The translations under genes were made by a program, and so were the position numbers. A stretch of 50,232 bases of DNA, taken from a bacterium. GTDB lineage: Bacteria > Vulcanimicrobiota > Vulcanimicrobiia > Vulcanimicrobiales > SCRA01. Positions 10,256-43,350 of this stretch are shown piece by piece. The DNA lies in assembly GCA_004298675.1 (NCBI GenBank), contig SCRI01000069.1, positions 1 to 50,232 of the forward strand, in the 5' to 3' direction. The notes beneath the pieces were generated by a model. It saw nothing but the letters and a program-made list of their open reading frames with translations. It did not search any database and was not told the origin of the DNA. Position 1 is the first letter of the stretch; every line of letters begins with the position of its first letter.

Positions 10256-11008
10256 CTAGGTGGGGATCTTCTCCAAGAACTGACGCACGCGCGCGCTGGC
10301 AGGTGCGCCGAAGAAGCGCTCGGGCGGCGCCTGGGCAACGATGCTGCCCTCATCAACGAAGACGATGCGATCGGCCGCTCTGCGCGCGAAGCCCATCTCG
10401 TGCGTGACGACGACCATCGTCATCCCCTCGCGCACCAGCTCGTCCATCGTCGCGAGCACCTCCTGCACCATCTCCGGGTCGAGCGCACTGGTCGGCTCGT
10501 CGAAGAGCATGACAGCGGGACGCATCGCCAGCGCGCGGGCGATGGCCACACGCTGCTTCTGTCCCCCTGAGAGCGAGTTGGGATAGGCCTGCTCCTTGGC
10601 GGCCAGGCCCACCTTGGCCAGCAGCGCCCGGGCCCGCTCCTGGGCCTCGTCCCGGCCGGTGCGCAGCACCTTCGTCTGCGCCAGCGTCACGTTGTCCAGC
10701 ACGGTGAGATGCGGAAAGAGATTGAACAGCTGGAAGACCATCCCCATGCGCATGCGCACGCGATTGACGTCCACGCCGGGAAGGTTGATCTGGGTACCCT
10801 CGAACCAAACCTCGCCCGACGACGGCTGCTCGAGCAGATTCATACAGCGTAGAAGCGTGCTCTTGCCCGAGCCGCTGGGCCCGATGATCGCCACGACCTC
10901 TCCGCGCGCGACCGCGAGGTCGACGCCCTTGAGCACCTCGTGTTCCCCGAAGCTCTTACGCAGCGCGCGAACTTCGATCATCGGCGTGGCCCCGTGCTGG
11001 TCCGTCAT
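10256..11008 (-). CDS. Polar amino-acid ABC transporter ATPase
   Basis: A 250-residue GlnQ/HisP-type ATPase. Walker A is GPSGSGKST, the Q-loop lies in MVFQLFNLFPHLT, the signature is LSGGQKQRV, Walker B is VMLFDEPTS, and the switch His is in VVTHEMGFA. It drives uptake of an amino acid through the adjacent permease. The start ATG overlaps the permease stop by four bases; a second ATG nine codons in (10981) is also possible. It is last of the RpiR-amidase-binding protein-permease-ATPase set. Confidence 0.92.
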   Translation of the reverse strand: MTDQHGATPMIEVRALRKSFGEHEVLKGVDLAVARGEVVAIIGPSGSGKSTLLRCMNLLEQPSSGEVWFEGTQINLPGVDVNRVRMRMGMVFQLFNLFPHLTVLDNVTLAQTKVLRTGRDEAQERARALLAKVGLAAKEQAYPNSLSGGQKQRVAIARALAMRPAVMLFDEPTSALDPEMVQEVLATMDELVREGMTMVVVTHEMGFARRAADRIVFVDEGSIVAQAPPERFFGAPASARVRQFLEKIPT

Positions 11009-11661
11009 ACGTACACCTTGAGCCGGCGCTCCAAGAGCTGCGTCCCGGTGCTGACGATCGAGGTCATGACGTAGTACATGATGCCGATGGTGAGGTAGAC
11101 GGAAAAGTTCTGAAATGTCGCGCTGATGATCAACTGGGCGCTGAGCAGCAGCTCCTGCACGGTCACGAGCGACACCAGTGCCGAGTTCTTGGTCAGCGCG
11201 ACGAACTCGTTGCCTAGCGGCGGCAGCATGCGCAAGAATGCCTGCGGCAGCACGACGTAGCGCATCGACTGGGCCCGGCTGAGGCCCAGCGACCGCGCCG
11301 CCTCGATCTGTCCGCGCTCGATCGACTGGATGGCACCGCGCACGATCTCCGTCTGGTAAGCACCGCTGTAGACGGCCAGACAACACACGGCGGCCACCAT
11401 TGGGGGTACTCTGATGCCCAGTTGTGGAAAGGCGTAGTACACGAAGAAGAGCTGCACGATGAACGGCGTGCCACGAATGACGGAGACGTACGCAGCCGCC
11501 AGGCCTCGCAGCGGTGCCAGCGGCGAGACGCGCGCGAGCCCGCCGGCGAGGCCGGCGACGGCCCCGAGCACCAGGGCCATCGCCGTCACCTCCACCGTCA
11601 CGAGCGCACCGTGCAGCAGCAGCGGAAACGAGTCGTGAACCGCCTGCAAGCCCGCGGTCAC
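11005..11661 (-). CDS. Polar amino-acid ABC transporter permease
   Basis: A 218-residue HisM/GlnP-type inner-membrane permease with about five helices. It has the typical RGTPFIVQLFFVYYAFP block and an EAA loop reading EAARSLGLSRAQSMRYVVLPQA, which docks the ATPase. The start is GTG at 11661, 17 bases after the binding-protein stop. Only one permease gene is present, so it presumably works as a homodimer. It overlaps the ATPase gene by four bases. Confidence 0.92.
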   Translation of the reverse strand: MTAGLQAVHDSFPLLLHGALVTVEVTAMALVLGAVAGLAGGLARVSPLAPLRGLAAAYVSVIRGTPFIVQLFFVYYAFPQLGIRVPPMVAAVCCLAVYSGAYQTEIVRGAIQSIERGQIEAARSLGLSRAQSMRYVVLPQAFLRMLPPLGNEFVALTKNSALVSLVTVQELLLSAQLIISATFQNFSVYLTIGIMYYVMTSIVSTGTQLLERRLKVYV

Positions 11662-11678
11662 GTCACGAGACTCCGTGC

Positions 11679-12473
11679 CTACTCACTCTTACCGAACCAC
11701 TTCGTCTCGAGTGCTTTGAGCGCGCCGTCTTTCTCGAACGCGGCGAGAGCCTCGTCGGCGGCTTTCGTCAGCCCGGAGTCACTCTTACGGAAGGCGTAGC
11801 CGTACTGCTCGTGGGTGAGCAGAAACGGAGCCATCTTCGCGCCGCCGTGCGTCTTGATGTAGTAGCGCGCAGCCGGGTAGCCGGTGACCACCGCGTCAGC
11901 CTGCCCGTTCTGCAGCGAGAGGAACATCTGATCGTTGGTCTGCACGATCACCAGCTGCGCGCTTGGTATGTGCTCTTTGAGCCAGTTGACCGACTTGGTT
12001 CCCACCTGCACGGCGACATGTTTGCCGGCCAAGTCCTGCTCCGACTTGGTTGCCGTATCGTCGGGCTTGACCATCACGCTCAAGCCGCCGGTGAAATACG
12101 GATGGGTGAAGTCGACGACCTTCTGCCGCGCCGCGGTGATGTAGATGGCCGAAGCCGCCATGTCGATATGGCCAGCGGTCAGTCCTGGAACCAGCCCCCC
12201 GAACGGAACTTGGCGGAACTCGACGGTTTTGACGCCGATCTTCTTGGCGACGGCGTTGACGAGATCGATGTCGAAGCCGATCTTTTCGCCGGCCGCGGTC
12301 GTGTATTCGAAAGGCGGGAAGGTAGCGTCGGTACCGACGATCAGCGGCTGCTGGCCGGATCGCAATGCATCGAGCAAGTCTGCACCGCGTGCCGGTGAGA
12401 GCCGCGCCCCAACCGTAACGGCGGCGATGGTGGCGCCGGCTGAGGCAAGCAGCGTCTTTCGGTCAATGCGCAT
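11679..12473 (-). CDS. Amino-acid ABC transporter substrate-binding protein
   Basis: A 264-residue periplasmic binding protein of the SBP_bac_3 family. After a signal peptide (DRKTLLASAGATIAAVTVGA, cleaved near ARGAD) come VGTDATFPPFEY, IGFDIDLVNAVAKKIG and FGGLVPGLTAGHIDM. The start is ATG at 12473, because AAGGAG lies nine bases upstream; an in-frame ATG at 12482 abuts that site. Linkage to an M20 hydantoinase/carbamoylase-type amidase suggests the ligand is an amino acid derivative or a product of that enzyme. The exact ligand cannot be read. Confidence 0.92.
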   Translation of the reverse strand: MRIDRKTLLASAGATIAAVTVGARLSPARGADLLDALRSGQQPLIVGTDATFPPFEYTTAAGEKIGFDIDLVNAVAKKIGVKTVEFRQVPFGGLVPGLTAGHIDMAASAIYITAARQKVVDFTHPYFTGGLSVMVKPDDTATKSEQDLAGKHVAVQVGTKSVNWLKEHIPSAQLVIVQTNDQMFLSLQNGQADAVVTGYPAARYYIKTHGGAKMAPFLLTHEQYGYAFRKSDSGLTKAADEALAAFEKDGALKALETKWFGKSE

Positions 12474-12513
12474 GGTCTCCATCTCCTTGTCGTGGATGCG
12501 AGCAACACCCGGA

Positions 12514-33538: not shown

Positions 33539-34447
33539 ATGTTGACGAGCCTTCGGCGCCCCACCTTCGACGAGCTGAACCTCTCGCTGGGGAAGCGCGC
33601 GCGTCTGCACCGGTTGATGTACGAGCACGGCACCGCTAACGGCACCCTGCTGCTCCTGCCCCTCGACCAGGGCCTCGAGCACGGGCCGGTCGATTTCTTC
33701 GAGAACCCCGACTCGGTGGATACCGACTGGGTGCTGCGGCTGGCAGTCGAGGGTAAGTTCTCGGGCTTTGCCTGCCACGTGGGTCTGGCCGAGAAGTACA
33801 TGACGGCGTACGCGGGACGCGTGCCGCTCATCCTCAAGGTCAACGGCAAGACCAACGTACCGCCCGACGACGCCTCCTTCTCGCCGCTCACCTCCAGCGT
33901 CGAGGATGCGGTTCGCCTGGGCGCCGATGCGGTGGGCTACACGCTCTACGTCGGCTCGCCCTCGCAGGACCGCGACCTCGCGCAGTGCGATGCCGTTCGT
34001 AAGGACTGCGAGAAGTACGGCATGCCGCTGATCGTCTGGTCGTATCCGCGCGGCAGCGCCGTCAAGGCCAAGGGCGGCCAGGACTCACTCTATGCCGTCG
34101 ACTACGCGGCACGCGTCGCCTGCGAGGTCGGTGCCGACATCGTCAAGCTCAACGTCCCCAAGTGGGAGGAAGAGAAGGCGGCCGCGCTCCCCAAACCCTA
34201 CAACAGCCTGAAGCTCGACGAGATCGAGGCGTTGCGCAAGGTCGTGAAGAGCGCCGGCCGCACGCTCGTGCTGGTCTCCGGCGGCTCGAAGATCTCCGAC
34301 GAGGACACCTATCACAAAGCGCAGGTGGCCATGGAGGCCGGCTGCGTCGGCTTGATCTTCGGCCGCAACATGTGGCAGCGCACCTGGGAGAGCGCCACGG
34401 CGATGTCCACCCGCATGCACGCGCTGATGGAGCAGTACGGGCAGTAG
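33539..34447 (+). CDS. fbaB: Class I fructose-bisphosphate aldolase (DhnA type)
   Basis: A 302-residue TIM-barrel aldolase that cleaves fructose 1,6-bisphosphate by Schiff base. Blocks: LLLLPLDQGLEHGP, ILKVNGKTN, LGADAVGYTLYVGS, WSYPRGSAV, and the Schiff-base lysine in DIVKLNVPKW. The phosphate site is VSGGSKI and FGRNMWQR. This archaeal/bacterial FbaB group includes enzymes with FBP phosphatase-like relatives, but the length and motifs suit a plain aldolase. The start is ATG at 33539, with AAGGA about 12 bases upstream; a longer open frame upstream is not conserved. It converges on the binding-protein gene with ten bases between stops. Confidence 0.92.
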   Translation: MLTSLRRPTFDELNLSLGKRARLHRLMYEHGTANGTLLLLPLDQGLEHGPVDFFENPDSVDTDWVLRLAVEGKFSGFACHVGLAEKYMTAYAGRVPLILKVNGKTNVPPDDASFSPLTSSVEDAVRLGADAVGYTLYVGSPSQDRDLAQCDAVRKDCEKYGMPLIVWSYPRGSAVKAKGGQDSLYAVDYAARVACEVGADIVKLNVPKWEEEKAAALPKPYNSLKLDEIEALRKVVKSAGRTLVLVSGGSKISDEDTYHKAQVAMEAGCVGLIFGRNMWQRTWESATAMSTRMHALMEQYGQ

Positions 34448-34457
34448 TTAGCGGTAG

Positions 34458-35330
34458 CTAATGGAAGCGCGCGCCGGCGGAGATCGGCGCCGTGCGCAGC
34501 GCTCCCTCCGCTAGGTCCCACTTGGTGAGGATGCGATCGTACTCACCGTCGGCGATGATCGCCTTGAGCGCCGCTTGCAGCGCATCCCGCAGGTGGCGAT
34601 CCTCCTTGCGCACGCCGATGCCGTACGCCGCGACGGCGAACTGCTTGCCCACCACCTCAAAGAGCGCGCCACCGCCTTCGGTGCGGGCATCGTATGCGGC
34701 AACCGGATAATCCGCGACATGGGCCGCTGAGCGCCCCAACTTCAGCTGCTCCAGTGCGTCGGTGTCGGTGGCAAAGGCTAGGACGGTGATCGCGCCCTTG
34801 TGCGCGGCCTCGCAGCGCTTGGACTGATTCTTGAGATACGTGACCTGTGCAGTCCCCTGCTCGGCATCCGCGGTCTTACCGCAGAGGTCGGCCAGCGAAC
34901 GAACGTGCTCGGGATTGCCCTTACGCACCAGAACGCCGCTGCCCGCCAGGAAGTAGTCGATGAAGTCGATGCGCTGCTCGCGCTCGGGCGTGTCGTTCAT
35001 CGCCGAGAAGACGATGTCGAAGCGATGTGACAAGAGTGCCGGGATGATGCCGTCAAACGTGGTGTTGATAAAGTCGAATCTCACGCCCAGCCGCTTGCCC
35101 ATGGCGGCAGCAAGGTCGTAGTCGAGGCCCTTCACGTCGTGAGTCCCCGGTGCATAGAACTCCACCGGCGCATACGAGATATCCGAGGCCACATGGATCA
35201 CGCCGGCACGGGCGACAGCGGGCGGTAAGAGGTGCTTCAGACTCCCCGCGCCGGCTGCACCGGGACTCGATGCGCCCAGCGTTGCGCCGAGGGCCAGCAC
35301 CCCGATCAGCGCTGCGAGTGTTCGTGACAT
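34458..35330 (-). CDS. Amino-acid-type ABC solute-binding protein (orphan)
   Basis: A 290-residue exported binding protein of SBP_bac_3 type: signal peptide (LAALIGVLALGATLGA), then IHVASDISYAPVEFY, GLDYDLAAAMGKRLGV and FDGIIPALLSHRFDIVFSAM. Two Cys (LADLCGKT, KSKRCEAAHK region) may form a disulfide. No permease or ATPase of the matching type is adjacent; the closest system is the AttEFGH-like set in the same direction, of a different class. It starts 28 bases after the P1 peptidase gene. The ligand is unknown. Confidence 0.9.
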   Translation of the reverse strand: MSRTLAALIGVLALGATLGASSPGAAGAGSLKHLLPPAVARAGVIHVASDISYAPVEFYAPGTHDVKGLDYDLAAAMGKRLGVRFDFINTTFDGIIPALLSHRFDIVFSAMNDTPEREQRIDFIDYFLAGSGVLVRKGNPEHVRSLADLCGKTADAEQGTAQVTYLKNQSKRCEAAHKGAITVLAFATDTDALEQLKLGRSAAHVADYPVAAYDARTEGGGALFEVVGKQFAVAAYGIGVRKEDRHLRDALQAALKAIIADGEYDRILTKWDLAEGALRTAPISAGARFH

Positions 35331-35358
35331 CGTGGACTTTGCTCCCTTCCCGTTAGCG

Positions 35359-36543
35359 TTAGCGATGCTCCGCGAGCAGGGCGCTCAGGCGCGCGTGCGG
35401 CAGGGCGTAGGCTGTGTTCCCGTCGCGCCCCGTCATCGTCCTTGCCGCCAGCAGGGCATTGAGGATCGCCTCCTCGGTGGCGTCCTGAGCGGCCGTGAAG
35501 ACCGGATCGATATGGTAGCGCGAGAGGATGGTGAGCGGATAGGTGGCCGCCTCAGGATAGTGCGGGATGACGTTGGCAGTGGAGAAGGCGATCACCAGAT
35601 CGCCGCTGCCGGGCATCGAGGTGGCGCCCGTGCGTGCCAGCCCCAGCGCCGCACGGCGCGCGACCCCCAGCAGCTCGGCGTGGTCCAAGGGGGCGTCGGT
35701 GGCGATGACGATGATGATCGATCCATCCGGCGTGCCGCGCTTGGGCATGAGGCCGGTGATGGCACGGCCCACCGCCACGCCGTCCACCGTCAACTGCGGG
35801 CGGCGCCCCATGTTGGCGTTGACGAGCACGCCGACGGTGTACCCGCCTTCCGGCGCGGGGAGCACGCGTGAGGCGGTGCCGATCCCGGCCTTGAATTGGA
35901 AGGCCATCATCCCGGTCCCCGCGCCGACGCCGCCCTGCTGCGGCGGTGCGGTCGAGGCGCCGTCGAGCGCCGCCACGGCGTCCGCGGCGACGGCGTGGCG
36001 CCCTTGGATGTCGTTGAGGAACTGATCGTCGCACTCCGCCACCACCGGCAGCGGCACGTCGTCATCGATGCCGATCCCGGGATAGTGCTGGATCATCCAC
36101 GAGACGACGCCGTCGTCCACACGCCCCACGGAGAGCGTGTCGGTCAAGAGAATCGGCACCTCGAGCATGCCGGCCTCGTTCACCCAATGCGCACCGGTCA
36201 TCTCGCCGTTGCCGTTGAGGGCCCAGATCGCTGCCGGCACCTTGCGGTGCCAGAGGTCGTTGCGCGGGATGATGGCGGTGACGCCCGTGCGCACGGGGCC
36301 GCTGCCGGGGCGCAGGCGCCCGGCGCCCTCGATGTGCGTGACTTGTCCGACGCGTACGCCCGCTACGTCCGTGATCGCATCGTTGGCGCCCGTGGGTAGC
36401 GCTCCGATCGTGATGCCCAGCGCCGGTGCCTTGGTGAAGGCGCCCTCGGACGCGACGTACGCGTTGCCGGCGGCCGCACTCGCGCACGGAGCAACGGATA
36501 GCGCCGCACTCAGCACCGCGGCGTACCATCCCAGCCTCGTCAC
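35359..36543 (-). CDS. Exported P1-family (S58, DmpA-like) aminopeptidase
   Basis: A 394-residue protein with a signal peptide (LGWYAAVLSAALSVAPCASA) and a P1/S58 fold. Blocks: ITIGALPTGANDAITDVAGV, GVTAIIPRND, MTGAHWVNEAGMLEVPILL, GGVGAGTGMMAFQFKAGIGT, DGSIIIVIATDAPLD and SGDLVIAFSTAN. S58 enzymes self-cleave before a Ser, likely the Ser in DGSIII here, which then serves as N-terminal nucleophile. They release N-terminal D-, L- or beta-amino acids from peptides. The start is GTG at 36543, overlapping the dehydrogenase stop (GTGA). It is the last coupled gene of the AttEFGH-like run. Confidence 0.88.
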   Translation of the reverse strand: MTRLGWYAAVLSAALSVAPCASAAAGNAYVASEGAFTKAPALGITIGALPTGANDAITDVAGVRVGQVTHIEGAGRLRPGSGPVRTGVTAIIPRNDLWHRKVPAAIWALNGNGEMTGAHWVNEAGMLEVPILLTDTLSVGRVDDGVVSWMIQHYPGIGIDDDVPLPVVAECDDQFLNDIQGRHAVAADAVAALDGASTAPPQQGGVGAGTGMMAFQFKAGIGTASRVLPAPEGGYTVGVLVNANMGRRPQLTVDGVAVGRAITGLMPKRGTPDGSIIIVIATDAPLDHAELLGVARRAALGLARTGATSMPGSGDLVIAFSTANVIPHYPEAATYPLTILSRYHIDPVFTAAQDATEEAILNALLAARTMTGRDGNTAYALPHARLSALLAEHR

Positions 36544-37565
36544 GGGAACTCCACGATGGTCTTGAGCGCGGCGCCGCCGGCGCGCATACGCGCGTAGGCT
36601 TGCGCCGCGCCGTCGAGCGTGACCCGGTCCGTGACGACCTGCGCGGGGGTCACGATGCCGCGGCCGAGCCACTGCAAAGCCTCACGCATGTCATTGGGGC
36701 CGGCCGAATACGATGGCACGAGCGTGATCTCGCGCAGGTAGAGCGAGCAGCCGTCGAGCGCGGTTTCGACACCTTCCGGCGTGGGCGTGAAGAGCACGAC
36801 GGTGCCGCCGGACGCACAGGCGTCGATGCCGGCGCGCCAGGCCTGCGGCGAGCCCGGCCCCACGATCACGACGTCGAAGGGTCCGTGCTCGCGCGCGGCC
36901 GCGCCGTCGTCTGGCGACCAGACCGCGTCGGCGCAGAGCGCGAGCGCGCGCTCGCGCCGCCAAGCGTTGAAATCAACGCCGCAGACCTCGGCGCCGCGGG
37001 CTTTGGCGGCTACGACGTGCAGCAGCCCCATGGCTCCCAGCCCGATCACGAGCACGCGACTGGCTTCGCCCACACCGCCACGGCGCAGGCTCTTCGCGAC
37101 GCAGGCCACAGGCTCGGTCATGCTCGCCGCATCGAACGGCAGCGCCGCGGGCAGCAGCAGCGTGTCGCCGAGATTCTCGCGCGGCACGAGAATGTATTCG
37201 GCGATACCCCCGGGCACCAAACGGCTCGAGCGCCAAGCCGGACAGTGCACGTAGGCGCCGCGCCGGCAGTAAGCGCAGGCAAAGCAGGGAGCGTGGTGAT
37301 GCAGCGCAACGCGATCACCGATCTGAAAGCCCTCGACGCCCTCGCCCAGCGCGACCACTTCCCCGGCCGGCTCGTGCCCTAGCACCAGCGGTGCCTTACG
37401 CCGCACGTACCAATCCATGAGATCTCCGGAGCAGATGCCGCTGGCGCGCGTGCGCACGAGCAGCTCGCCGGCGCGCGGCCGCGGCACCTCGAGCTCTTCG
37501 ATCTCGAGACGATCAACGTCGTACAGACGCAATGCGCGCATGCGCGCAGGGAGCGTAGCGCTCAT
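36540..37565 (-). CDS. Zinc-dependent medium-chain alcohol/polyol dehydrogenase
   Basis: A 341-residue dehydrogenase. The catalytic zinc Cys is in GICSGDLMDWY, followed by LGHEPAGEV. The structural zinc loop is CFACAYCRRGAYVHC with four Cys. The nucleotide-binding turn is VIGLGAMGLLHVV. The class includes sorbitol, threonine and other alcohol dehydrogenases; the substrate is unknown. It overlaps the second dehydrogenase gene upstream and the peptidase gene downstream by four bases each. Two paralogous dehydrogenases in tandem may catalyse successive steps or form a mixed complex. Confidence 0.88.
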   Translation of the reverse strand: MSATLPARMRALRLYDVDRLEIEELEVPRPRAGELLVRTRASGICSGDLMDWYVRRKAPLVLGHEPAGEVVALGEGVEGFQIGDRVALHHHAPCFACAYCRRGAYVHCPAWRSSRLVPGGIAEYILVPRENLGDTLLLPAALPFDAASMTEPVACVAKSLRRGGVGEASRVLVIGLGAMGLLHVVAAKARGAEVCGVDFNAWRRERALALCADAVWSPDDGAAAREHGPFDVVIVGPGSPQAWRAGIDACASGGTVVLFTPTPEGVETALDGCSLYLREITLVPSYSAGPNDMREALQWLGRGIVTPAQVVTDRVTLDGAAQAYARMRAGGAALKTIVEFP

Positions 37566-38602
37566 GGCAACACCGCGTACTTCACGCCCTCGCCCCGCTG
37601 CAGGCGCGCGAAAACGCCCTCGATGCCCTCGAGACCGCTGCGCCCGGAGATCAACGCCGACACGTCGATGGCGCCTCCGGCCAACAGTTCGTAGGCGCGC
37701 CGGACGTCGCGCGGGCGAAAGTGAAACGGCGAGAGCACGGAGATCTGATCGTAGTGCAAGCGCGACGTATCGACGTAGACGGTGCTGCCCGGCGCCGGAC
37801 CGCCGAAGAGCGAGACGACGCCGCCGCGCCGCGCCAGCGCCAGCCCCGCGTGCCAACCCTCCACTTGGCCGGTACACTCGATCACGCGATCGGCGCCGCG
37901 CCCGCCGCTGATCTCTTCGACGAATGCCCGCACGCCGTTCACCGACTCCCGCTCCAGCGTGACTTCACGCACCCACTCCGCGCCGGATGCACGCGCCAAT
38001 GCCAAGCGCGCGGTTCCGCGCCCGACAACCGCCACGCGCACCCCCAGCGTGCGCAGCAGGGCGACGTGCAGGAGGCCGAAACCGCCCGCACCGAGGACGA
38101 TCGCCAGATCGCCTGCACGCGGCGCGCAGAGCTCGACGCTGTGGACCACGCAGGCCAGCGGCTCGAGGAAGGCGGCGTGCTCGTACGGGAGCGCGGCGGG
38201 TTTGACAAAGGCGTTGCGCGCGACGATGTGGCGCGGCACCAGGATCTGCTGCGCATACGCGCCCAGGATCTTGGTCTCCATGAGCTCGACGCAGAGATTC
38301 TCTTGATCCGCGTGACACCAGTAACACCGTCCGCACGGCGCAGAGTGCACGGCCATGATCGCATCGCCCTCGCTGAAGCGCTCGACGCCGCTGCCAACGG
38401 CGGCCACGTCTCCGGAGAACTCGTGGCCAAACGGAGTTGGCATCGGCATCTTGGGATGACCGCGGCGGAAGGCTTTGAGATCGGTGCCATCGGTGAGCGC
38501 CGCGCGCACCCGCACCACGATCTCGCCGGGTCCCGGAGTGGGCGAGGGCAACTCTTGGAGCTCGACGCGCCCTGGAGCGACGAGAACTGCTGTCTGGTTC
38601 AT
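37562..38602 (-). CDS. Zinc-type medium-chain dehydrogenase with altered catalytic ligand
   Basis: A 346-residue dehydrogenase, paralogous to its downstream neighbour. The catalytic zinc position, usually Cys in CGTD, reads DGTD (ALTDGTDLKAF), so the ligand would be Asp. The next ligand block PFGHEFSGDV is intact, and the structural zinc loop CGRCYWCHADQENLC is complete. The nucleotide turn is VLGAGGFGLLHVA. Asp may still bind zinc, or catalysis may be changed. The start ATG overlaps the AttH-like stop by four bases. Confidence 0.88.
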   Translation of the reverse strand: MNQTAVLVAPGRVELQELPSPTPGPGEIVVRVRAALTDGTDLKAFRRGHPKMPMPTPFGHEFSGDVAAVGSGVERFSEGDAIMAVHSAPCGRCYWCHADQENLCVELMETKILGAYAQQILVPRHIVARNAFVKPAALPYEHAAFLEPLACVVHSVELCAPRAGDLAIVLGAGGFGLLHVALLRTLGVRVAVVGRGTARLALARASGAEWVREVTLERESVNGVRAFVEEISGGRGADRVIECTGQVEGWHAGLALARRGGVVSLFGGPAPGSTVYVDTSRLHYDQISVLSPFHFRPRDVRRAYELLAGGAIDVSALISGRSGLEGIEGVFARLQRGEGVKYAVLP

Positions 38603-39687
38603 CGAGGTACCTCGCCCGCATACCCCGTGAGCTCGACGTACCCCTGCCCCGCGCCGCAGGCGCGCCGCGCGGCGCCGTCTGCGGGCGCGCTCAGCGGCAC
38701 GAGACAGACGTCGCCCTCCCAGTAGCTGACCCCGCGGCTGACCAGTTCCTGATCGCGCAGGCGCGGAACGACGCGTACGTCCACCCCGGCGCGTGGTACA
38801 CGCACGATCCAACCGCTCGGATAGCGAGCCCGGCTCTGGGGGCTGCGCCACGCACCCGTCGCTTGGATCGAGAAATCGGCGGCCCGCAGATGCTCCACGC
38901 TGCCGTCGCGCCCGATCAAGCTGCCGCTAGAGGCAGGGATGAAGCTCCCGTCGCGTCTACGCAGGTGATAGAGCATGACGTCGCGCCCGTCCGCCAACTG
39001 CATCGCAAACCAGTCCCAGCCGACGACGCCGGCGTCCAGATCGCCGCTGCCGAATTCGTGATCCAGCCACGCCAGCGCTCGAACCGCCCTGCGCTGCGTT
39101 CCAACTCGCACGCTGCCCTCGCCGCTCAGGCGCGTCAGCGAGTAGTAGTGCGAAGCGCATCCGGCGCACGCTCCCTTGCGCGATATACCGTCTTGGCCGT
39201 GAACCGCCGGCGGTTTCAGGCTGCGCAGGCGTAAAGAGATCGCCGCAGCACGCGTCTGGGCGTGGAGGCGGAGCGGCTCCAGGCCGCGGATCCACCAGTC
39301 CCCGGCGTGGACGTCAAGCCCGTCGCTCGACGCTCCCGCTTGATCCAGCGCCGGACGCGCCAGACGTTCGGCATAGAGGAACCGCCCCGCCGTATCGTCG
39401 CTGACGGCAAAGTGCGCGGGGAAGATCTCGCCGTTACGCCAGCGCGACTCCCCTGGGCGCGGCGAAGGCGCTCCCGGCACGATTCCAACGCGAAAGAGCG
39501 TCAGCTCGAAGCCGTAGCGGTGGCCATCGGCTGCGAGGAGATGACCTGTGACGTACCACCACTCCAGACGATCTCCGCGATGGCTGCCGTGATCGCGCGG
39601 AAAGGTGAACGCGTACGGTCTCAGGGCCGCGGGCCAACTCGCAGCGCAGCACGCGGCTATCAGCAGCAACGCCAGCAAGCGCCTCAC
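38599..39687 (-). CDS. Exported AttH/CrtC-like lipocalin-fold protein
   Basis: A 362-residue protein with a signal peptide (RRLLALLLIAACCAASWPAA). The opening FPRDHGSHRGDRLEWWYVTGHL and YGFELTLFRVG are typical of the AttH/carotenoid 1,2-hydratase lipocalin family; later blocks are AWLDHEFGSGDL and DWFAMQLADGRDVMLYHLR. AttH accompanies the AttEFG ABC transporter in other bacteria, and here it directly follows such an ATPase and permease. Its role may be to bind or modify a lipid-like substrate; this is unproven. The start is GTG at 39687, overlapping the permease stop (GTGA). Confidence 0.85.
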   Translation of the reverse strand: MRRLLALLLIAACCAASWPAALRPYAFTFPRDHGSHRGDRLEWWYVTGHLLAADGHRYGFELTLFRVGIVPGAPSPRPGESRWRNGEIFPAHFAVSDDTAGRFLYAERLARPALDQAGASSDGLDVHAGDWWIRGLEPLRLHAQTRAAAISLRLRSLKPPAVHGQDGISRKGACAGCASHYYSLTRLSGEGSVRVGTQRRAVRALAWLDHEFGSGDLDAGVVGWDWFAMQLADGRDVMLYHLRRRDGSFIPASSGSLIGRDGSVEHLRAADFSIQATGAWRSPQSRARYPSGWIVRVPRAGVDVRVVPRLRDQELVSRGVSYWEGDVCLVPLSAPADGAARRACGAGQGYVELTGYAGEVPR

Positions 39688-42263
39688 TCTTCGCGCACCG
39701 CTTCGGCGGTCGGCATGCGCGCGGCGGCACCGGCGGGTAAGACCGCCGCCGCCAACGCCGCCACCACCACCGCCGCCGCGAGCTCGGCAAACGAGCGCCA
39801 GGGCACGCGCAACTCGATGAGCCAACCGAACGTCTGCGCGTTGATCACGTAGATCAGCACCAGTCCCAGAGCCAAGCCCAGTACCAGCCCCGCGATGGCC
39901 GCACCCACGCCGAGCAAGCCGGCCTCGATCAGCACCATCGCACGTACCTCGGCGCGGCGTAGTCCCAAGTAGCGCAACAAGCCGATCTCCCGGCGGCGCT
40001 CGAGCACCAGAGCGGCTAACGCCGTGGTAACCCCGAGCATGGCGATGGCGATCGAGATGACGTAGAGCGCGGACGTGATCGCGAAGGTGCGATCGAAGAC
40101 GCGCAGCACCTGCGCGCGCAGCTCGCGCGTGGTCTGGACGTTCAAGCGCGCCGGTTGCGCGGCTCGCTCGATGCGCGTGCGCAGCGCCCCCGGATCGACT
40201 CCCGGCTTGGCGTAGACGGCGATCGAGTTGAGCGCGCGGTCGTGCCACCAGCGGCGGTACGTCGCGATATCCATCACCACGAAGCCGGCGTCGCTAGAGT
40301 AGTCGTTATAGATCGCGCTCACCGCGAAGGGGTGCCGCCCCAGCGGCGTCGTGAGATCGATCCTCTCCCCGGGCCGTACGTTGAAGCGCACGGCGAAGGG
40401 GCGGCTGATCACCACGGCGTCATGCCCCACCAGCTCGCGCTGCAGTTGCGGGCGGTCGACGCGTCCGATGAACTCCATCTTCGCGCGCCGCTCCAAGCTC
40501 GAGAAATTGGTGGCCCCCAGATTGGTCAAACGGCCGCGAAAGGTGATATCCGTGCCGCGAAAGACGTCGACCGCGTCTACCGCAGGCAGGGCCTTTATGC
40601 GCGCGTATAGCTGCGCTCCCGTGGAGGCATCGAAACCCACGTTCTGTGGACCCGGCGGGGTGATGAAGAGATCGGCTTTGAGGGTCTGACCGGTCCACGC
40701 CGCAACCGTGCTGCGGAACGACGAGACCAGCGTACCGACGGCCACGCTCATTCCCACAGCCACCGCTAGCGCTGCCAACGCCACGCCGTTGCGCCGGAGC
40801 GAGACGCCGAGGCTGCGCGCTCCCAGCGCCGCGCTGGGATAGCGCGCCAACAGCACTGCCGCTACGCGCGCCAACACCCCCAGCCCAAGCGGTGACGCCA
40901 ACGAGATGCCAAAGACGAATGACAACCCGGCCGCGAAGCCGGCGACGGGCACGCCGTCAAGCGGAGGCAGCAACGTCAAGGCCCCGCCCAAGAGCAGCAG
41001 CGCCAAGCCCACCGCGGCACTGCGCCGCAGCCAGTCCGGGGAGCGGCGCTCGAAGGCACCGGCACGCATGGTCGTGGCCGGCTCGGTGCCGGCGGCTTCA
41101 CGCGCGGGCGGCAGCGTCGAGAGCGTCGACGCGATCACCCCGATCGCGAAGACGAACAGAAAGACGCGCCAATCGTAGACCACTCGATCCGCATGCTCGA
41201 AGACGTAGAGCGAGCTCACGGTCCGCGTGACCGCGGCGACGGCACTGCGTGCCGCCAACGCCCCCAACCCGAGACCGAGAAGCGATCCCAGCACGCCCAC
41301 GATCGCGCCCTCGGCGACGAACGCGGCGAAGATCGCCCGTCGCGAGACGCCCAGTGCGCGCAAGACGCCGATCTCGCCGCGGCGCTGCACCACCGCGATG
41401 GCCACGGCGTTGTAGATGAGATAGGTTCCAACGAGCAACGCCACGTACGCCAAGGCCGCGAGGTTTAGCTGGAACGAGCGCAGCAGGGAGGCGATCTCTC
41501 CCGTGCGCCGCCGCGGCGTGGTTATCTGCGCGTTGGGAGGCAAGACCTTGCGCAACGCCGCCTCTGCCGCCGCGAGCTTCGAGGCGGGCTCGACCACGCA
41601 GTCGATACGATCGAGGCGTCCCACGGCTCCGAGCAGTTCCTGCGCCGTCGAGATGTCGGTGAACACCACGCTCGAGTCCACCCCCACGAGCGTAGGCAGC
41701 ACCGCCGCTACCGGCAGGCTCACGTGGCGCGTGCCGGCGACCACGTTCCAATGCGACCCTTGCTGCACGTGGTACTGCGCCGCGACGCGGCGCGAGATCA
41801 GCACGCCGTCACGCGCGATGAGCGTGCTCAAGCTTGGTGGATGCTGCCCCTGCGCGCCGGCTCCGGTGGCCGCCTCCTGCGCCTGCGCACCCGGGTAGGG
41901 TCTCAGCACGTCGACGCCGATGACCTCCAGCAGCTCACCCGAGCGTGCGTCGTTTGCGCGCGCGCCCGCGAGGATCGTCCCGGTCACCGCCGGCTGCGCG
42001 TACACGATCGATGGCAGGCGCTCCACGGCCAGCAGCGCGCGCTCGTCGAACGGCGCGCCGTCGGCGAGGATCTGCAGATTCACGCGGCTGCTGACGACGT
42101 TGACGCTGCTTTGAAACGAGCGGACGGCCGTGGCATTGGCGAGCTGCACGGCTACCGCAACGGCCACGCCCAGAGCCACCGCGCTCACCGTCATGAGCGT
42201 GCGCCACGGATGCTCGCGCACGTAACCAAGGACCAGCGCGCGCAACACCCAAGCGAGGGTCAC
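39684..42263 (-). CDS. ABC transporter permease with two FtsX domains (AttFG-like)
   Basis: An 859-residue membrane protein. An N-terminal helix precedes a large extracytoplasmic domain, then an FtsX core (LAALAYVALLVGTYLIYNAV), a middle helix pair, a second extracytoplasmic domain and a C-terminal FtsX core ending at TAEAVREE. The cytosolic helix RRGEIGVLRALGVSRRAIF and its repeat RRREIGLLRYLGLRRAEVR are the coupling segments. Such mechanotransmission-type permeases move lipids or lipoproteins, or work with the LolCDE/MacB class. In AttEFGH two permease genes are separate; here they appear fused. The start is GTG at 42263, overlapping the ATPase stop. Confidence 0.9.
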   Translation of the reverse strand: MTLAWVLRALVLGYVREHPWRTLMTVSAVALGVAVAVAVQLANATAVRSFQSSVNVVSSRVNLQILADGAPFDERALLAVERLPSIVYAQPAVTGTILAGARANDARSGELLEVIGVDVLRPYPGAQAQEAATGAGAQGQHPPSLSTLIARDGVLISRRVAAQYHVQQGSHWNVVAGTRHVSLPVAAVLPTLVGVDSSVVFTDISTAQELLGAVGRLDRIDCVVEPASKLAAAEAALRKVLPPNAQITTPRRRTGEIASLLRSFQLNLAALAYVALLVGTYLIYNAVAIAVVQRRGEIGVLRALGVSRRAIFAAFVAEGAIVGVLGSLLGLGLGALAARSAVAAVTRTVSSLYVFEHADRVVYDWRVFLFVFAIGVIASTLSTLPPAREAAGTEPATTMRAGAFERRSPDWLRRSAAVGLALLLLGGALTLLPPLDGVPVAGFAAGLSFVFGISLASPLGLGVLARVAAVLLARYPSAALGARSLGVSLRRNGVALAALAVAVGMSVAVGTLVSSFRSTVAAWTGQTLKADLFITPPGPQNVGFDASTGAQLYARIKALPAVDAVDVFRGTDITFRGRLTNLGATNFSSLERRAKMEFIGRVDRPQLQRELVGHDAVVISRPFAVRFNVRPGERIDLTTPLGRHPFAVSAIYNDYSSDAGFVVMDIATYRRWWHDRALNSIAVYAKPGVDPGALRTRIERAAQPARLNVQTTRELRAQVLRVFDRTFAITSALYVISIAIAMLGVTTALAALVLERRREIGLLRYLGLRRAEVRAMVLIEAGLLGVGAAIAGLVLGLALGLVLIYVINAQTFGWLIELRVPWRSFAELAAAVVVAALAAAVLPAGAAARMPTAEAVREE

Positions 42264-42931
42264 GCCACGATCCGCCCATCGCGCATCTGCACCACGCGGT
42301 CGGCGATGCGCGCGGCCTCCGCGCTGTGCGTCACCATGAGGATCGTCTGCCCCTCGTCGGCGATCTCTCGCAGCAGGGCGAGCACCGCGGCGCCCGAGGC
42401 CGAGTCGAGGTTGCCTGTAGGCTCATCGGCTAGTACCACCGCCGGCCGATGAGCGACCGCTCGCGCCACGGCGGCACGCTGCAGCTGCCCGCCGGAGACT
42501 TGCGCGGGATACTTGCGCGCCTGCGCCGCCACACCCACGCGTTCCAAGAGCTCGTGCACGCGGGCGGCACGGCGCTCGGCCGGCTCGCCCGTCAGCACGA
42601 GCGGCAAGGCAACGTTCTCCTCCAGCGTCATCGTGGGCAGAAAATTGAAGAACTGAAAAACCGTGCCGACGAAGGTGCGCCGCAGCGCCGTCAACTGCTC
42701 GTCGTCCAGCCCGGACGTGAACCGGCCGGCCACGCAGACCTTACCGCGCGTGGGTACGTCGACGCACCCGATCACGTTGAGCAGCGTCGACTTACCGGAG
42801 CCGCTGGCCCCCACCAGCGCCGCCAGCTCGCCGCGCGCGACGCTCAGGTCGACGCCGCGCAGGGCCTCGACACGCTCTTCGCCTGCGCCGTAGATTTTCC
42901 AAACACCGGCGCAGGCGATGGGATCCGGCAT
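42260..42931 (-). CDS. LolD/MacB-class ABC transporter ATPase (AttE-like)
   Basis: A 223-residue ATPase. Walker A is GASGSGKSTLL, the Q-loop is in TVFQFFNFLPTMTLEENVALP, the signature is VSGGQLQRAAVARA, Walker B is VVLADEPTGNLDS, and the His switch is in MVTHSAEAA. The GNLD tail after Walker B is typical of MacB/LolD ATPases. It powers the fused permease. It is first of a run of six genes each overlapping the next by four bases. A strong terminator separates it from the upstream ferredoxin gene. Confidence 0.92.
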   Translation of the reverse strand: MPDPIACAGVWKIYGAGEERVEALRGVDLSVARGELAALVGASGSGKSTLLNVIGCVDVPTRGKVCVAGRFTSGLDDEQLTALRRTFVGTVFQFFNFLPTMTLEENVALPLVLTGEPAERRAARVHELLERVGVAAQARKYPAQVSGGQLQRAAVARAVAHRPAVVLADEPTGNLDSASGAAVLALLREIADEGQTILMVTHSAEAARIADRVVQMRDGRIVA

Positions 42932-42994: not shown

Positions 42995-43237
42995 CTACTT
43001 CTTGTAGTAGTCGGCGTTTTTCTGAATGTATGATTGCCACTTATCAGGGACGTCCGTATCCGCATAGATCGCTTCGACCGGGCACGCGGAGACGCACGCT
43101 CCGCAATCGATGCAAACTTCGGGATCGATGTAGAGCTGTTCGTCCTCGTCCGTACCGTGAATGCAGTCGACCGGGCATACATCGACGCACGCTCTATCCT
43201 TCACGCCGATGCAGGGCTCGCAGATCACATAGGCCAT
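42995..43237 (-). CDS. Seven-iron type bacterial ferredoxin
   Basis: An 80-residue ferredoxin. The first cluster box is CEPCIGVKDRACVDVCPVDC, with the spacing of [3Fe-4S]/[4Fe-4S] ferredoxins of thermophile type, and the second is CIDCGACVSACP. The C-terminal tail DVPDKWQSYIQKNADYY is typical. It is a small electron carrier in the cytosol; partners are not adjacent. The gene ends at a strong terminator and is divergent from the MarC gene. Confidence 0.95.
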   Translation of the reverse strand: MAYVICEPCIGVKDRACVDVCPVDCIHGTDEDEQLYIDPEVCIDCGACVSACPVEAIYADTDVPDKWQSYIQKNADYYKK

Positions 43238-43350
43238 GATGAGACGGTAACCTTTCTAGACTCTCCCCAGCGAACCAATCGAAGCAATCTCTCTCGCCGC
43301 CCGCATTCTCGCGGCATACCGCCGTGTCCTTGCCTCATGGGTGCAGCACT

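Follow-up and report, generated by a model that had tools for sequence, protein, structure and literature searches.

The closest known counterpart of the transporter considered here is YbbAP-TesA of E. coli (PDB 9GE6-9GE8, PMC12646458), a type VII ABC system in which a separate ATPase is combined with a single fused permease some 800-860 aa long, and which reportedly extracts hydrophobic compounds (PMC12646458). Other systems with FtsX and MacB_PCD domains are assembled in a different manner: LolCDE has LolC and LolE as two distinct subunits, and MacB forms one chain with its ATPase. In the case of the AttH lipocalins, the paper on PDB 2ICH (NE1406, an AttH/DUF2006 lipocalin) noted in 2009 the link of the family to a LolD-like ABC ATPase, proposed lipid transport for NE1406 in connection with an ABC system, and also proposed from 2ICH a role in isoprenoid metabolism (PMC2954199). 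We found almost nothing on AttEFGH systems beyond that paper.

The locus described here lies in a stretch of 50,232 nucleotides (hereafter the window) from a bacterium of the order Vulcanimicrobiales. It has the separate ATPase and single fused permease of YbbAP-TesA, whereas its periplasmic partner gene encodes the lipocalin AttH and not the hydrolase TesA. It differs from the NE1406 system in that the AttH gene is followed by four further genes, called here the tail, in its own genus only.

Gene content and junctions of the row

The minus strand carries seven tightly packed open reading frames, running from 42931 down to 34458 between two flanking genes:

42260-42931, minus strand: ABC ATPase of the LolD/MacB/YbbA type, 223 aa (Pfam ABC_tran, 6.4e-29)
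39684-42263, minus strand: fused double-FtsX permease, 859 aa (Pfam, AlphaFold2, Foldseek)
38599-39687, minus strand: AttH-like two-barrel lipocalin, 362 aa (CrtC, Lipocalin_9, PDB 2ICH)
37562-38602, minus strand: zinc-type dehydrogenase ADH1, 346 aa (ADH_N, ADH_zinc_N)
36540-37565, minus strand: zinc-type dehydrogenase ADH2, 341 aa (ADH_N, ADH_zinc_N)
35359-36543, minus strand: P1/S58 (DmpA/BapA) peptidase (Peptidase_S58, 3.2e-111)
34458-35330, minus strand: family-3 (polar amino acid type) solute-binding protein (SBP_bac_3, 3.3e-35)
33539-34447, plus strand: flanking, convergent class I aldolase (DeoC/LacD family)
about 43000-43240 (approximate), minus strand: flanking 4Fe-4S ferredoxin upstream of the ATPase (Fer4)

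All of these gene positions in the row, the 4-nt GTGA/ATGA overlaps at five of its junctions and the 28 nt between the peptidase gene and the last gene, that of the solute-binding protein, agree with a preliminary description of this DNA, and the gene identities given there are borne out by Pfam and NCBIfam. The aldolase gene, which converges on the row, ends 10 nt past the solute-binding protein gene, and the ferredoxin, 96% identical in relatives, marks a conserved upstream boundary.

The strictness of this coupling had been taken as a sign of an undescribed pathway common to the seven genes. The 4-nt overlaps are not special, because exactly such an overlap is possible in 15 of the 35 same-strand neighbour pairs of the window. 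The compact operon that had been described is nevertheless retained within the genus: the two best relatives (G002 and G003) keep the 4-nt overlaps at the junctions, with the exception of the ADH2/P1 junction, which is a 1-nt TAATG overlap in one genus relative, so that co-translation of the row is likely in the genus. The promoter scan, which yields about one site by chance, found no promoter-like site on the coding strand inside the operon, and the promoter and terminator scans stayed at chance level.

The ATPase-permease-AttH trio

The transporter shares with LolCDE and MacB the FtsX and MacB_PCD domains and an ATPase that resembles LolD and MacB; its scores against these systems lie under the NCBIfam cut-offs, as do those of the best models for the ATPase (MacB, DarD and LolD). 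In the permease, Pfam recognises two FtsX (PF02687) and two MacB_PCD (PF12704) stretches, which is the type VII combination: a membrane protein of the FtsX type whose periplasmic core domains resemble those of MacB. For this protein AlphaFold2 (mean pLDDT 79.5, 40 sequences in the alignment) predicts ten long helices (19-58, 250-293, 308-352, 365-391, 409-429, 440-471, 489-527, 712-755, 770-812 and 822-839) and two periplasmic MacB-like domains in one chain, an arrangement that is that of YbbP. Short helices at 295-303 and 757-765 follow long helices 2 and 8, that is, they stand between helices 2/3 and 8/9, the sites of the coupling helices in YbbP. In Foldseek, E. coli YbbP (9ge6_A, E 9.6e-21, near full length) comes first among the PDB matches of this model and is also the best full-length fold match, the YbbP entries 9GE6 and 9GE7 (E about 1e-20) ranking above LolE, MacB and BceB; the TM-score with YbbP is moderate (0.60, rmsd 8.1).

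The AttH protein matches CrtC (PF07143, 1.1e-50) and Lipocalin_9 (PF17186, 1.9e-39), both above cut-off, which indicates two lipocalin-like barrels. Residues 25-357 match PDB 2ICH (E 4e-45), and the N-terminus is hydrophobic at residues 4-22. That an AttH-type lipocalin is associated here with an ABC system of type VII (mechanotransmission), as already suggested in the preliminary description, is supported by Pfam, 2ICH, AlphaFold2 and Foldseek. A lipobox on AttH, suggested by the window sequence, was discarded, being kept in only 1 of 79 relatives. Apparent permease-AttH fusions of 1171-1241 aa (L037 and L065) proved to be wrong-frame gene calls, and the long ORF of L036, another candidate fusion, contains no permease part.

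AttH was then used as a bait in 61 genomes of the order and in a species-level genome collection, the families being designated f1 (own family), f2 (sister family) and f3 (in another order of the class). The permease directly adjoins AttH at 98 of the 104 loci with room to judge (69/75 in the species-level collection and 29/29 in the order), while four loci of Nitrospirae carry AttH with the permease not adjoining. What surrounds AttH is an ABC ATPase and an FtsX permease, the composition of an AttEFGH-type cassette, and this trio stands alone across Verrucomicrobia, Acidobacteria, Gemmatimonadetes, Gammaproteobacteria and Vampirovibrionales. No further gene family recurs beside it at the AttH-bait loci beyond close relatives, and no TesA-like gene was found among the neighbours adjoining the trio there. 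The trio is a free-standing unit in many phyla. Dehydrogenases occur at most 1.5 kb from AttH in the own genus only, and neither they nor the peptidase and the binding protein, which share this restriction to one genus, are members of the cassette.

In three genomes of f2 (L150:276-3709, L152:80-3601 and L147), a ketosynthase gene and a polyketide-cyclase-like (SRPBCC) gene lie upstream of the trio, preceded in L150 and L152 by a methyltransferase and an FAD oxidoreductase; these genes may constitute a small cluster for the synthesis of a lipophilic compound.

The four tail genes and their other locations

The frame into which the tail was inserted is found in the sister family. At the f2 loci L151, L154, L155 and L182, ClpC is followed by the ATPase, the permease and AttH, without the four tail genes, and in L154, L155 and L182 the convergent aldolase lies downstream of the trio, as in the window. 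In the window itself, ADH1, ADH2, the P1 peptidase and the solute-binding protein stand between AttH and the aldolase, the frame being otherwise as in f2. The AttH unit and the dehydrogenase pair are joined in one genus only (4 genomes), and the conserved co-occurrence in relatives that a neighbourhood search for AttH and the dehydrogenases should have revealed, had the preliminary description been right, was not encountered outside that genus. Among the 57 f2 genomes, AttH and the pair are found together in 11, against 15.5 expected, an association that is, if anything, negative (Fisher p 0.018, a value uncorrected for shared ancestry). The operon thus consists of separate modules whose stacking is specific to this lineage and, as the tail was added behind the trio in one genus, the gene row is not evidence of a new pathway.

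The dehydrogenase pair changes its place from family to family. The f2 orthologues (about 50-58% identity) belong to the locus lysC-dapA-wecG-NTP transferase-comF-ribD-ribE-thioesterase-ADH1-ADH2-ribBA-ribH-mtnA; in the own genus, this lysine/riboflavin operon is present and the pair is missing from it; in f3, the pair lies beside a GarR-like (2-hydroxy-3-oxopropionate) reductase and a cupin. The maximum-likelihood tree of ADH1 places f1 next to f2, and f3 apart, with support of 96/96 or better. Judged from this family-wise tree and the changed loci, the pair is vertically inherited and has moved as a block. Its presence in a different operon in each family constitutes a second, smaller question, and no literature on a riboflavin operon with dehydrogenases was found.

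Two side observations concern these riboflavin loci. In L127-L146 of f2 (for example L133:6370-8474), the tandem dehydrogenases are placed between a 4HBT thioesterase gene and ribBA, and the fused ribBA at L133:8516-9925 bears at its N-terminus an HTH_3 domain (Pfam 1.3e-07), perhaps an integral regulator. The lysine/riboflavin row of the own genome also contains, on the opposite strand, a set of ABC export genes of the MacA/MacB kind (L173:3995-7288, G000 contig C20).

In ADH1, aligned to 4EJ6, Asp38 replaces the usual catalytic-zinc Cys, the His/Glu ligands and the four-Cys lobe being kept, and ADH2, whose nearest PDB relative is L-threonine 3-dehydrogenase, keeps Cys45/His64/Glu65 and the four-Cys structural-zinc lobe. 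Of the 43 readable ADH1 sequences, 33 have Asp and 10 have Cys at this catalytic-zinc position; since f3 supplies 10 sequences, the Cys type is probably that of f3. The closest solved relatives of both enzymes include polyol, sugar and threonine dehydrogenases. In one genome of the genus (G001), ADH2 is directly followed by a DHDPS-family lyase gene (L042:2639-3556) related to L-2-keto-3-deoxyarabonate dehydratase, and the contig ends just past it, inside an ORF whose start resembles a signal sequence and which may encode the peptidase. The other three genomes have the peptidase gene after ADH2, and only distant DHDPS-family members (about 30% identity), located elsewhere.

The peptidase, which matches 2DRH (2.9e-92), 1B65 and 3N2W in the PDB, resembles DmpA/BapA over its whole length and possesses the Gly-Ser autoproteolysis motif (Gly274-Ser275 in DGSII, aligned to 2DRH), between the two residues of which it is presumed to be cleaved; it differs from DmpA/BapA by its signal-like N-terminus. 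Of the 57 f2 genomes, 51 encode it, and wherever its surroundings were inspected in that family they were different ones. As to the solute-binding protein, its PDB matches are amino-acid binding proteins. Elsewhere in the window, the genes at 10256-12482 encode what looks like a complete polar amino-acid ABC importer (ATPase, permease and solute-binding protein), with which the orphan binding protein at 34458-35330 might work.

A model for the trio and its tail

The model we propose, to which we give a probability of roughly two thirds, is that of an ancient YbbAP-type three-gene core with the lipocalin AttH, behind which four genes of separate origin were stacked in one genus. We interpret the trio as a motor of the YbbAP type whose acceptor is a lipocalin because of the YbbP-like model and Foldseek ranking of the permease, the hydrophobic segment of AttH and its match to NE1406. 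The ATPase and the fused 10-helix permease would constitute a mechanotransmission motor acting on the periplasmic side. The binding of ATP would move the periplasmic domains, and a hydrophobic, presumably lipid-like molecule would thereby be lifted out of the inner membrane's outer leaflet. In the periplasm, AttH would receive or bind this molecule in the place held by TesA in YbbAP-TesA. The ketosynthase and polyketide-cyclase-like genes that precede the trio in three f2 genomes would be in keeping with a lipophilic product in those genomes. The tail, made of the nomadic dehydrogenase pair, the P1 peptidase and the family-3 binding protein, would share the transcript of the ABC-AttH unit and probably not its substrate: its genes are probably co-transcribed with the unit but metabolically separate from it.

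A single pathway of all seven genes, in which the dehydrogenases would build or modify a lipid- or amino-acid-like molecule for the ABC-AttH system to move, with its processing or recovery outside left to the peptidase and the binding protein, seems very unlikely to us. The retention of the operon and of its tight junctions in the genus speaks for it, and the position of the trio behind polyketide cyclase/SRPBCC and ketosynthase genes in three f2 genomes indicates that coupling to a product pathway can occur. Yet the overlaps are the local norm, the trio is independent in many phyla and lacks the tail in f2, the joint occurrence is restricted to one genus with no positive association in f2, the vertically inherited dehydrogenase pair belongs elsewhere to other operons (the riboflavin operon, or beside the GarR-like gene), and in G001 a DHDPS-family lyase gene takes the position of the peptidase gene of the other three genomes. 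We would give a slimmer chance still to the proposal that the trio is a widespread second YbbAP class with a lipocalin acceptor, and that this genus recruited the tail to work on the extracted molecule. Selection for a joint function would nonetheless also explain why the tail is retained over the genus with tight junctions, and the seven genes could still act together within their own genus.

The tail might instead be a small set for the scavenging of sugar acids or amino acids that does no more than borrow the ABC-AttH promoter. A polyol or sugar acid would then be oxidised by the dehydrogenases, while the peptidase and the binding protein would recover unusual peptides or amino acids. We regard this as possible, if somewhat doubtful: the pair adjoins the GarR-like reductase in f3, the lyase beside it in G001 is a relative of a sugar-acid dehydratase, its nearest solved relatives include polyol, sugar and threonine dehydrogenases, and the peptidase is related to D- and beta-aminopeptidases, but the f2 pair lies among riboflavin and lysine genes and not among sugar-acid genes. 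With regard to the trio, AttH could be an isoprenoid enzyme like the hydratase CrtC, to which the ABC system would present membrane isoprenoids. The strong match to the CrtC domain, the hydratase being in the same Pfam family, and the role proposed from 2ICH agree with this idea; however, a family match alone does not show catalysis, and the inspected neighbours included no recognisable carotenoid gene, so that we consider it unlikely.

In conclusion, this locus illustrates how a pathway suggested by the gene order of one genome can be undone by comparison, the boundary genes being kept and the tail absent in the sister family. It also leads to an idea that can be put to the test: AttEFGH-type systems, on which little work exists, may extract lipids in the manner of YbbAP, with a lipocalin as the receiver.
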